Positions 12,384 through 49,151 of a stretch of 64,000 nt of DNA are shown here, in pieces. Origin of the DNA: Nocardioides sp. S-1144 (GTDB taxonomy: Bacteria > Actinomycetota > Actinomycetes > Propionibacteriales > Nocardioidaceae); NCBI RefSeq assembly GCF_005954645.2, contig NZ_CP040695.2, forward strand, positions 1,240,001 to 1,304,000, read 5' to 3'. Position 1 is the first letter of the stretch. The number at the start of each line of letters is the position of its first letter. Below the pieces are notes generated by a model. It was not told where the DNA came from. It did not search any database and saw only the letters and a list, made by a program, of their open reading frames with translations. The position numbers and the translations under genes are program-made.

Positions 12384-12446
12384 GGTTTCCCCGGTCGACC
12401 GGGGAAACCTGAACCTGGGGGCCGGGATCCCGGCCGACAAGTTCAG
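12384..12446. repeat. Compound palindromic repeat, copy A
   Basis: A perfect 26-bp palindrome at 12384-12409 (half-site GGTTTCCCCGGTC) is followed by a 38-bp hairpin bounded by CTGAAC and GTTCAG (12409-12446). Its centre is the 16-bp palindrome GGCCGGGATCCCGGCC. A related element lies at 30092-30183. It sits between divergent genes, so it is not simply a terminator. Confidence 0.8.
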
Positions 12447-12524
12447 GTCTCGGCCCCCCAGTCGCGCCCGGACGACGTCGGCACGGGTCGGCGACCGTCC
12501 CCGCCCCCTGCTTGGCTGGACGAC

Positions 12525-19187: not shown

Positions 19188-19189
19188 CC

Positions 19190-19264
19190 CGCTGACCCGT
19201 CGCTGATCAGCGACGGGTCAGCGGGAAAACTGCACTGACCCGTCGCTGATCAGCGACGGGTCAG
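19190..19264. terminator. Tandem palindromes between convergent genes
   Basis: Two perfect palindromes built on the half-site CTGACCCGTCGCTGA: 34 bp at 19190-19223 and 30 bp at 19235-19264. They separate the ends of the M1 peptidase and citrate synthase genes. The same tandem arrangement recurs at 49077-49149. A short run of TCAG repeats follows at 19292-19319. A bidirectional terminator is the likely role. Confidence 0.75.
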
Positions 19265-19319
19265 CGCGGGGTCCGGGCGGTGGGCCCGGGTCCGGTCAGC
19301 TCAGGTCAGCTCGGGTCAG

Positions 19320-29730: not shown

Positions 29731-30084
29731 GTGGCCGTGATCGGCGTCGGCATCGACGTGTGCGACCTCGACCGGTTCGCCGCCTCGATGGAGCGGACGC
29801 CGGGCCTGCGCGACCGGCTCTTCACCCCGGCCGAGGCCGCCCGCCCGCTGGCCTCGCTCGCGGCCCGGTTCGCCGCGAAGGAGGCCCTCGCCAAGGCCCT
29901 CGGCGCCCCGGCCGGCCTCGCCTGGCACGACGCCGAGGTGTTCTCCGAGGAGTCCGGCCGACCCCGCTTCGACCTCCGCGGCACCGTCCGCGCCCGCGCC
30001 GACCAGCTCGGCGTCGTCCACGTGCACGTCTCGCTCTCCCACGACGCCGGCATCGCCTCCGCCGTCGTCGTCCTGGAGTCGTAG
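29731..30084 (+). CDS. acpS: Holo-[acyl-carrier-protein] synthase
   Basis: A 117-residue AcpS that transfers phosphopantetheine from CoA to acyl carrier protein. It has the [13 protein letters not shown] start, [15 protein letters not shown] and [21 protein letters not shown] seven bases upstream favours the GTG at 29731 over the GTG at 29737. It lies 31 bases after glmS in the conserved order glmS-acpS-nnr-alr. Carrier domains of synthetases such as that at 13966 usually need a larger Sfp-type enzyme, which is not in this window. Confidence 0.94.
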
Positions 30085-30091
30085 CCCGGGT

Positions 30092-30183
30092 GGGATTTCC
30101 CCGGTCGACCGGGGAAGTCTGAACTGGGGGGCCGGGATATCGGCCGACAAGTTCAGGGATCCCCGGTCGACCGGGGAAATCCC
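30092..30183. repeat. Compound palindromic repeat, copy B (92 bp)
   Basis: Outer arms of 24 bases (30092-30115 and 30160-30183) are complementary, and each is itself palindromic around CCCCGGTCGACCGGGG. The middle is a 38-bp hairpin bounded by CTGAAC (30119-30124) and GTTCAG (30151-30156). Copy A lies at 12384-12446. Here it separates two genes on the same strand, ten bases before the nnr promoter hexamer. Confidence 0.85.
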
Positions 30184-30193
30184 GGCCACTGGC

Positions 30194-30199
30194 TACGGT
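30194..30199 (+). promoter_or_regulatory. -10 hexamer of leaderless nnr
   Basis: TACGGT lies six bases before the nnr ATG and eleven bases after the compound palindrome. Confidence 0.55.
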
Positions 30200-30205
30200 G
30201 GGCGG

Positions 30206-31609
30206 ATGAGGCGGGCACACACGGTCGACCAGGTGCGGGAGGCCGAGCGGGCGCTGATGGCGCGGCTGCCGGACGGCGCGCTGATGCAGCGGGCCGCGCA
30301 CGGGCTGGCGCACGCGGTGCTCGACCTCCTCGGGACGGCGGGGACGGTCTACGGACGCCGGGTGCTGCTCCTGGTCGGCTCCGGCGACAACGGCGGGGAC
30401 GCCCTGCACGCCGGCGCGGTGCTCGCCCGGCGCGGGGTCGCGGTCGAGGCGTGGCTGCTGTCCGACCACGCCCACCGGGCCGGCCTCGAGGCGCTGCGGC
30501 GAGCCGGCGGCCGCGTGGTCACGACGGCGCCGCGCACCCGACCCGACCTCGTCGTCGACGCGATCGTCGGCATCGGTGGCCGGCCCGGGCTGCGGCCCGG
30601 GGCCCGCCAGGCGCTGGACGCCGTCGCGGGCGTGCCGGTCGTCGCGGTCGACGTGCCCAGCGGGGTCGACGTCGACACCGGCGAGCTCGACGGCCCGCAC
30701 GTCGAGGCGGCGCTCACCATCACCTTCGGCACCCACAAGTTCGCCCACCTGCTCGACCCCGCCGCGCGGGCCGCCGGCACCGTGCACCTCGTCGACCTCG
30801 GCCTCGACCTGCCGGCGCCGGCCGCGGAGGCGCTGCAGGACGCCGACGTCGCCGCCCTCCTGCCGCGACCCGGCCCCGACGCCCAGAAGTACTCCCGCGG
30901 CGTCGTCGGCGTCCGGGCCGGCTCCGACGCCTACCCGGGCGCCGGGCTCCTCTCCGTCGCCGGGGCGAGCTGCGGCCTCGCCGGGATGGTCCGCTACGTC
31001 GGCGACCGCGGCGTGCTCGACCTGGTCCACGCCCAGCACCCCGAGGTCGTCGGCGCCGGCCGGGTGCAGGCGTGGGTGGTCGGCAGCGGCAGCGGCGACG
31101 GCGCCCCCGGCACCCTGGCCGAGGCCCTCGCCGACGCCGTCCCGACCGTCGTGGACGCCGACGCGCTGGCCCACGCCCCCCGCGGCGGCGGCCACGAGTC
31201 GCTGGTCCTCACCCCGCACGCCGGTGAGCTGGCCCGGATGCTCGACGTCGACCGCGTCGACGTCGAGGCGCGTCCCCTCGAGCACGCCCGCCGCGCCGTC
31301 GAGACCTACGGCGCCGTGGTGCTGCTCAAGGGTCGCCACACGCTCGTCGTGCACCCCGACGGCCGGGTGCGGGTCACCACCACCGGCACGCCGTGGCTGG
31401 CCACGGCGGGGGCGGGCGACGTCCTCGGCGGCGTCATCGGGGCGCTGCTCGCCGCCGGCCTCAGCCCCTTCGACGCCGCGTCGGTCGGCTCCTGGCTGCA
31501 CGGCGCCGCCGCGACGGCCGCCGCCGCGGACGGTCCGATCACCGCCGGTGACGTCGCGCGTGGCCTGCCACGCGTGCTCGGGTCGCTGCTGCGAGAATCG
31601 ACGACATGA
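30206..31609 (+). CDS. nnr: Bifunctional NAD(P)H-hydrate epimerase/dehydratase
   Basis: A 467-residue repair enzyme for hydrated NAD(P)H. The N-terminal epimerase domain has VLLLVGSGDNGGDALHAG and VAVDVPSGVDVDTGE. The C-terminal ADP-dependent dehydratase has KYSRGVVGVRAGSDAYPGAG, VVDADALAH, LTPHAGELARML, VVLLKGRHTLVV and TGTPWLATAGAGDVLGGVIG. Its stop overlaps the alr start (ATGA). Confidence 0.95.
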   Translation: MRRAHTVDQVREAERALMARLPDGALMQRAAHGLAHAVLDLLGTAGTVYGRRVLLLVGSGDNGGDALHAGAVLARRGVAVEAWLLSDHAHRAGLEALRRAGGRVVTTAPRTRPDLVVDAIVGIGGRPGLRPGARQALDAVAGVPVVAVDVPSGVDVDTGELDGPHVEAALTITFGTHKFAHLLDPAARAAGTVHLVDLGLDLPAPAAEALQDADVAALLPRPGPDAQKYSRGVVGVRAGSDAYPGAGLLSVAGASCGLAGMVRYVGDRGVLDLVHAQHPEVVGAGRVQAWVVGSGSGDGAPGTLAEALADAVPTVVDADALAHAPRGGGHESLVLTPHAGELARMLDVDRVDVEARPLEHARRAVETYGAVVLLKGRHTLVVHPDGRVRVTTTGTPWLATAGAGDVLGGVIGALLAAGLSPFDAASVGSWLHGAAATAAAADGPITAGDVARGLPRVLGSLLRESTT

Positions 31610-48197: not shown

Positions 48198-49082
48198 ATG
48201 CTGTGGAGAGTGCGCGTCACCCTGCCCGACCGCCCGGGCGCCCTGGCCGAGCTGGCGGCGGAGTGCGGCAAGGCCGGCGCCAACATCGTCGGCGTCCAGG
48301 CCTTCCCCGACAACGACCGGGTGACCGACGAGCTCGTGCTGCGGACCCCCGACGAGTGGACCGCCGAGGACCTCGTGGTCCTGCACGAGCGCTCCGGCGG
48401 CCGGGACGTGGTGGCCGCGACCTGCACCGAGGAGGCGCTGCTCGACCAGCCGACCCGCTTCGTGCAGGCGGCCCGCTCGGTGCTGGCCCAGCCGGCGTCG
48501 TTCCCCGACGTCGTGGCGCACCTCTTCGACGCCGACGTGCTGCCCGGCGAGGGACCGCAGGACGTGATGGAGATGGTGGTCGGCGACGTCCAGGTGCAGA
48601 TCCGGCGGGTCGCCCCGTTCACCGCCGTCGAGCACGCCCGCGGCGCCGCGATGGCCGAGCTCGTCAGCGACGTGCTCGGCCGCGAACGCCCGGCCTTCGC
48701 GCCGTCCGGTGGACGACGGATCGGGGCCGGTGCGGTGCCGACCTACGTCGTCGACGGCGGCACGGTGACCGCGCTCGCCGACGGCGTCGCCGCCGGCCGG
48801 GCCGTGGTGGTCGCCAGCACCGAGGACCCGACGGTCTTCACCGTCGACATCCGGGTCGACGCCGCCTGGCAGCGCCGCGGCATCGGCACCCGGCTGCTGG
48901 GCGACTCCGCCCGCCTCGCGCGCGGCCTCGGCGCCTCCGAGATCGTGCTCACCACCGCCCACGACAACCGTGCGGTGATGCCGATGGTGCTCTCCGCAGG
49001 CATGCGCGGCCGGATCCGGATGGCCGGCGAGACCCTGACCGTCCGCATCTCCGTCACCGAGCTCCGCCCCCTCGACCGCTGA
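48198..49082 (+). CDS. ACT domain-GNAT acetyltransferase fusion
   Basis: A 294-residue fusion. Residues 1-75 form an ACT-like ligand-binding domain (MLWRVRVTLPDRPGALAELAAECGKAGANIVGVQ). Residues ~180-294 form a GNAT domain (FTVDIRVDAAWQRRGIGTRLLGDSARLARG, VLTTAHDNRAVMPMVLSAGM). ACT domains usually bind amino acids, so allosteric control of acetylation is likely; this is inference. GACGCT lies six bases before the ATG, with GGAGG in between. Its stop codon lies inside the palindrome at 49077. Confidence 0.88.
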   Translation: MLWRVRVTLPDRPGALAELAAECGKAGANIVGVQAFPDNDRVTDELVLRTPDEWTAEDLVVLHERSGGRDVVAATCTEEALLDQPTRFVQAARSVLAQPASFPDVVAHLFDADVLPGEGPQDVMEMVVGDVQVQIRRVAPFTAVEHARGAAMAELVSDVLGRERPAFAPSGGRRIGAGAVPTYVVDGGTVTALADGVAAGRAVVVASTEDPTVFTVDIRVDAAWQRRGIGTRLLGDSARLARGLGASEIVLTTAHDNRAVMPMVLSAGMRGRIRMAGETLTVRISVTELRPLDR

Positions 49083-49149
49083 CCCGTCGCTGATCAGCGA
49101 CGGGTCAGCGAGTCCTGGGCCGACCCGTCGCTGATCAGCGACGGGTCGG
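49077..49149. terminator. Tandem palindromes between convergent genes, second locus
   Basis: A 34-bp palindrome at 49077-49110, identical to that at 19190-19223, is followed by a 30-bp one at 49120-49149. In the latter the outer T-A pair has become C-G on both sides, keeping symmetry. They separate the ACT-GNAT and GH15 genes, which converge. Confidence 0.75.
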
Positions 49150-49151
49150 CG

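Follow-up and report, generated by a model that had tools for sequence, protein, structure and literature searches.

On balance, the compound palindrome at positions 30,092–30,183 (+ strand; copy B) of the 64,000-nucleotide stretch of Nocardioides sp. S-1144 DNA analysed here (the window) appears to be a non-autonomous repeat originating from the ends of a gene-bearing Nocardioides element, its low-rate spread presumably driven by the protein of that element and its persistence presumably due to retention at the 3' ends of genes. More generally, the data suggest a spreading family of DNA repeats, not described before, that has a partner protein of its own.

Copy B is identified by its sequence, its fold and covariance-model matches on both strands. 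Its outer arms of 24 bases each (30,092–30,115, GGGATTTCCCCGGTCGACCGGGGA, and 30,160–30,183, both read directly on the + strand) are exact reverse complements, and each contains a 16-bp perfect palindrome, CCCCGGTCGACCGGGG, termed unit A (30,099–30,114 on the left, where divergence from Nocardioides sp. 1609 is low, and 30,161–30,176 on the right). The nested arrangement claimed in the original prediction, complementary arms that are each themselves palindromic, is therefore exact on direct reading. Between the A units lies a 38-bp hairpin, CTGAAC...GTTCAG (unit B; 30,119–30,156; like the A palindromes, without strand assignment), which was correctly said to be common to copy B and another element of the window, copy A; the two versions show three differences (C for T in the left arm and ATCC for ATAT in the centre). 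At up to two mismatches, CCCCGGTCGACCGGGG occurs six times in the window against 0.56 expected.

When folded as RNA, copy B reached -87.6 kcal/mol, compared with -51.6 +/- 3.9 kcal/mol for shuffled sequences (z = -9.2; 0/200 as good). This value corresponds to one long hairpin; local hairpins, formed with a pairing span of at most 46 nt, gave -66.6 kcal/mol, and for one copy in genome G012 the separate-hairpin form is the predicted minimum. The local A stems are preserved between species, with 95–97% of cells paired. When the two A units are compared at their four-base centres, the informative cases comprise 17 direct, 5 inverted and 6 other arrangements. The centres are thus mostly direct, so that complementarity over the whole outer arm is not kept and a conserved long-hairpin switch is unsupported. 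Two folds are open to the element, as had been proposed. Covariation across copies was strong, and orthologue comparison gave 8 two-sided changes against 3.3 expected; given these counts, and because arm exchange or palindrome correction could yield the same pattern, covariation was not used as decisive for an RNA fold. No covariance model of a known Rfam RNA matched the family, and a known RNA family was ruled out as its identity.

The family of copies that had been suspected does exist. A blastn survey of the 4.43-Mb genome found 29 distinct places, of which 10 have the A-B-A architecture of copy B (type 2) and 19 consist of A-B followed by a tail (type 1), the tail being a half-palindrome, TTTnGGCCnCCCAGTC. 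Copy A belongs to the latter type, with a core of one A palindrome and the B hairpin (12,389–12,446, + strand; hairpin at 12,409–12,446) and a tail, GTCTCGGCCCCCCAGTC (12,447–12,463, + strand), the half-palindrome whose orientation is inward in copies that bear the gene. Having a single A unit, copy A is of another architecture but of the same family as copy B. Of 118 Nocardioides genomes sampled, 96 gave covariance-model matches to the family. Outside the genus, matches came from fewer than half of the genomes sampled in three other Nocardioidaceae genera and from one genome of another family of the order.

The geometry of the repeat is rigid. Despite sequence divergence by species, 64 of the 65 distinct copies have an A-B-A core of 78 bp, free of indels, in a search that allowed 68–88 bp, and successive dyads (A, B, A) lie 31 bp apart. 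In the type 2 copies of this genome, the two B halves differ consistently (for example GGGGAAGTCTGAAC versus GGGGATCCCTGAAC). B is therefore a hybrid, composed of two half-arms, as the joining of two different ends would produce.

Such ends are found around a gene. In the S-1144 genome, a single gene is enclosed by two copies in opposing orientation, at 2173060(+) and 2174265(-), and a homologue in genome G008, 49–50% identical, is framed by that genome's own version of the repeat. At 30 loci from 30 species, covariance-model matches lie near the gene and mostly flank it on either side, and 29 nnr control loci gave one weak match. The gene-bearing form has an A-B-tail pointing inward at both ends, measures 1168–1281 bp from A to A and holds one gene of ~0.9 kb. 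Twenty further loci, mostly paralogues, are also framed, some by unrelated palindromes (TTCACCG...CGGTGAA and GGTTATCAGCA...TGCTGATAACC). With a joint inverted-palindrome score of at least 37 as the threshold, 48 of 50 partner-gene loci were framed, compared with 0/600 random placements and 2/505 other genes.

Gene and repeat are also tied to one another in sequence and in occurrence. Gene distance and end similarity are correlated (Mantel r = 0.60; 0/2000 permutations), and paralogues within one genome have unlike ends, built from different palindromes. The ends match dispersed copies best within their own genome (0.88–0.94) and reach at most 0.76 against the other two genomes. By profile search the partner-protein family is present in 107 of 118 genomes, and a close homologue occurs in 77 of 96 repeat-positive genomes, the remaining 19 lacking one, but in only 2 of 22 repeat-negative genomes (P = 5e-10). 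A second paralogue in this genome (G000:C1:656697-657611, locus L360; with L045:504-588) is framed by TTTCACCGC...GCGGTGAAA, and elsewhere in the genome an A-B-A copy matching this type has the A-to-A spacing of the main family, exactly 62 bp, as does another, sequence-unrelated palindrome type. The gene-bearing form occupies 22 neighbourhoods among 50 loci, one of them common to 12 species, and is mostly inherited in place. Gene and ends may consequently correlate by common descent, which contributes to the Mantel correlation; the end match within each genome, the association in presence and the 62-bp spacing of unrelated types are independent of common descent and are the stronger points.

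The partner protein, of ~300–316 amino acids, has no name in NCBIfam. An AbiEi_4 domain (PF13338) lies at its N-terminus, scoring above cutoff in protein P0001 and matched in 21 of 30 family members, and an alignment of these 30 members shows E205, D238, E249, D251, G252, K255 and Y256 to be invariant. A profile match to the Vsr-like nuclease AbaSI is weak (E = 0.11). A distant sister family, encoded in the acpS-nnr gap of other species, aligns to the partner family by profile (E = 2e-5); the model of the sister protein (pLDDT 80) matches the AbiEi antitoxin 6y8q and Rv2827c, its C-terminus being poorly modelled, and the sister protein has a weak match to DUF559. Judged from sequence, the partner protein probably combines an AbiEi-like winged-helix N-terminus with a nuclease-like C-terminus of the PD-(D/E)XK/Vsr type, the latter assignment being drawn from the invariant E/D/E/K residues, the weak profile match and the sister's poorly modelled C-terminus.

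The placement of the copies suggests a role at the 3' ends of genes. Of the 59 copies in two genomes, convergent genes flank 26 and divergent genes 4, compared with 6 and 33, respectively, of 84 other gaps of at least 60 bp (P = 3e-7 and 6e-6; gene calls from our own codon-based predictions). Moreover, 23 of 29 copies between co-directional genes lie closer to the preceding stop than to the following start. Over all copies shared by S-1144 and Nocardioides sp. 1609, the A units differ by 1.5% and the flanks by 10.7%, and indels are five times rarer than in the flanks; the low A-unit divergence could come from selection or from conversion among copies. With regard to intrinsic-terminator features, a hairpin soon after the stop codon is present, whereas a U-tract after the hairpin is absent (in copy B, GGGGAA stands 3' of the A hairpin). 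Closely spaced hairpins behind stop codons have been reported as bacterial terminators for which a U-tract is not required (PMC8355165). The B arms of type 1 copies contain 11 G-U against 16 A-C mispairs, hence no G-U excess, and strand-specific RNA selection through a G-U bias was discarded as a candidate. Since both a U-tract and a G-U excess are missing, the RNA role is putative, and the position of the copies makes a terminator or other 3'-end role likely. At G000:C1:3479037 (L031), an upstream reading frame apparently enters the element and ends at the TGA of CTGAAC; here the repeat may supply the stop codon.

The copies are largely stable, with signs of occasional gain. Nocardioides sp. 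1609 has a family copy at 24 of the 29 sites, 22 of which were aligned, and the more distant genome G032, with 30 copies, has three neighbouring genes in common with S-1144 and no more. One copy (G000:C1:1667888-1667990; L033) arose recently from the one at 2498467, with which it has in common private substitutions and ~25 bp of donor flank. It is inserted into the linker region of a membrane-protein gene without breaking the reading frame, and the same gene of Nocardioides sp. 1609 lacks it. The donor flank is unlike the product of a precise transposase, and no clear target-site duplication was found; at 4 of the 5 unshared loci the empty sites are too diverged to define ends. Carriage of the repeat by phages or plasmids was rejected on one marginal match to an unannotated phage record, with no relative of the partner protein in viral contigs, and no plasmid match. 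In Nocardioides sp. 1609, a tandem type 1 duplication with ~80 bp of flank (L234; copies at C14:248355 and 248506) lies just upstream of an smc-like gene, and a cluster of three copies (L233) corresponds to two copies in S-1144. At the sites orthologous to L048 and L050, the same genome lacks the family repeat and has other repeats (GGTCTCGACTCGCCGTGACTCCGTCCCCGCGGCTCGACC) in the same gaps.

Among known systems, REPIN/RAYT is the best analogy. REPINs are inverted REP doublets whose partner gene is flanked by repeats and vertically inherited, and which are copied slowly (PMC3116915, PMC8049555, PMC8266576). As in that system, the Nocardioides repeats consist of two conserved inverted 16-mers separated by a hairpin spacer, variable but constant in length, fold as a long hairpin or a clover, show compensatory changes, number tens of extragenic copies and form tandem clusters with flanks. 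Likewise, the partner gene is repeat-flanked (a different protein here, and thus an analogy only), vertically inherited and largely immobile, and its presence correlates with that of the repeats. Unlike in REPIN/RAYT, there is no Y1/HUH transposase, the partner is AbiEi-like with a nuclease-like domain, and each end is composed of A, B and a half-palindrome. No RAYT transposase (Y1_Tnp, PF01797) was found in the S-1144 genome (0/1) or in 118 Nocardioides genomes, control genomes being detected, and a RAYT was accordingly ruled out as mobiliser for the sampled genus. Nor does the palindrome carry a GTAG or CGTC tag at its foot in the aligned copies, as judged by inspection; lacking both transposase and tag, the family is not a member of REPIN/RAYT. 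The GTAG- and CGTC-tagged REPs are similarly short palindromes, many downstream of coding regions and proposed as RNA elements, but they bear the tags, and the phyla listed for them do not include Actinobacteria; CGTC REPs have no dedicated transposase, whereas the Nocardioides family has a partner gene (PMC3733652). With AbiEi antitoxins of type IV AbiE systems the partner protein has the N-terminal winged-helix family PF13338 in common, as well as the fold of its sister. It differs in being encoded by a single gene per unit, with no AbiEii toxin gene beside it (the A-to-A length holds one ~0.9-kb gene), and in its nuclease-like C-terminus and palindromic ends. ERIC/IRU and MITEs are imperfect palindromic intergenic elements of ~100 bp, as here; they were set apart by description, the partner gene and geometry being different. 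No clear target duplication was found, with most empty sites too diverged to define the junctions.

From these data a mechanism can be proposed in which the gene-bearing form (A-B-tail, gene, tail-B-A) would be the source of the repeat ends, and solo ends (A-B-tail) and end-to-end fusions (A-B-A, among them copy B) would become scattered behind genes. The partner protein would recognise the palindromes, as duplex or as extruded hairpins, and might copy or move them at a low rate, by analogy with what RAYTs do for REPINs. Copies would survive where they do least harm or where they serve as 3'-end hairpins, and would be retained if their clustered hairpins terminated transcription, or shielded mRNA 3' ends, from both sides; at acpS-nnr, copy B would close the acpS transcript ahead of the nnr promoter. 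A more specific version is put forward tentatively, at just short of even confidence: a REPIN-like system in which an AbiEi-like/PD-(D/E)XK protein replaces the HUH transposase and several sequence-orthogonal protein and palindrome pairs coexist per genome, all with the same 31 + 31-bp arrangement of three dyads.

The main rivals to a mobile repeat are domesticated terminators and AbiEi-type operators. That the copies are host-domesticated, bidirectional clusters of 3'-end hairpins (terminators or mRNA stabilisers) spread by ordinary duplication, with the gene merely caught between two of them, would agree with their position after stops, their enrichment between convergent and rarity between divergent genes, the low divergence and rare indels of the A units, and the terminator activity reported for clustered hairpins without a U-tract (PMC8355165). 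It leaves unexplained why inverted palindromes stand on both sides of the partner gene, the 5' side included, at 48/50 loci compared with 2/505 other genes, and why paralogues have family-specific palindromes, and it is considered unlikely. AbiEi antitoxins bind inverted repeats. The AbiEi_4 domain of the partner protein and the fold of its sister could thus indicate a regulator whose operators are the palindromes, scattered as a regulon, its nuclease-like domain being inactive or having another role; this is distinctly unlikely in that the copies keep away from promoters and follow stop codons, the units duplicated are entire A-B or A-B-A modules instead of isolated operators, and gain and loss occur site by site.

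Passive propagation through template switching during replication or through recombination, without any dedicated enzyme, would account for the tandem duplications with flanks, the donor flank carried by the recent insertion, and the half-arm exchange and palindrome correction between copies, but not for the tie to one gene family in presence, position and sequence, and was judged very unlikely. The original prediction, in which the element acts as a switch for nnr, is barely tenable. Copy B lies between acpS (holo-ACP synthase, NCBIfam; 29,731–30,084, + strand), whose stop codon is 7 bp before it, and nnr (NAD(P)H-hydrate epimerase/dehydratase, NCBIfam; 30,206–31,609, + strand, ATG at 30,206). 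A -10-like hexamer, TACGGT (30,194–30,199, + strand), does follow the element after ten bases, as noted at the outset, and two alternative folds are available. Yet a TAnnGT motif precedes nnr also in species without the element (plus-strand rows alone were compared), the 29 copies are at unrelated loci, most of them behind stop codons, and long-arm complementarity is not conserved. The 7-bp distance from acpS further weakens an nnr-specific role. Nocardioides sp. 1609, the nearest named relative found (94% DNA identity here), has the same element in the same place. In many other Nocardioides, the site occupied here by copy B contains the distant sister gene, framed by another palindrome family of 50 bp, GGGTCGTG...CACGACCC (L097:413-1470, L088:420-1478, L112, L095, L131, L144, L145, L185 and others).

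REP and REPIN repeats have so far been tied to one enzyme class, RAYT. If the proposal of a repeat family moved by its AbiEi-like partner is correct, a second, unrelated protein family lives beside its own palindromes and the repeat lifestyle arose twice, two origins that the sequence-unrelated yet geometrically identical repeats of paralogous proteins would support. A widespread, unnamed AbiEi-like group in Nocardioides would also gain a function, and intergenic hairpin repeats that could otherwise pass for terminators would be accounted for. A literature search of incomplete coverage returned no paper linking such AbiEi-like proteins with palindromic repeats, and there is a real chance that the machinery behind the dispersed palindromes and their partner is new. 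Since matched as well as mismatched substrates are available within each genome, the palindrome and protein pairs can be tested directly in vitro.

The window also contains a second palindrome family, TGACCCGTCGCTGATCAGCGACGGGTCA, at 19,189–19,266 and 49,076–49,151, in pairs 41–43 bp apart; it has 158 blastn matches in this genome (both strands counted), often in local arrays.
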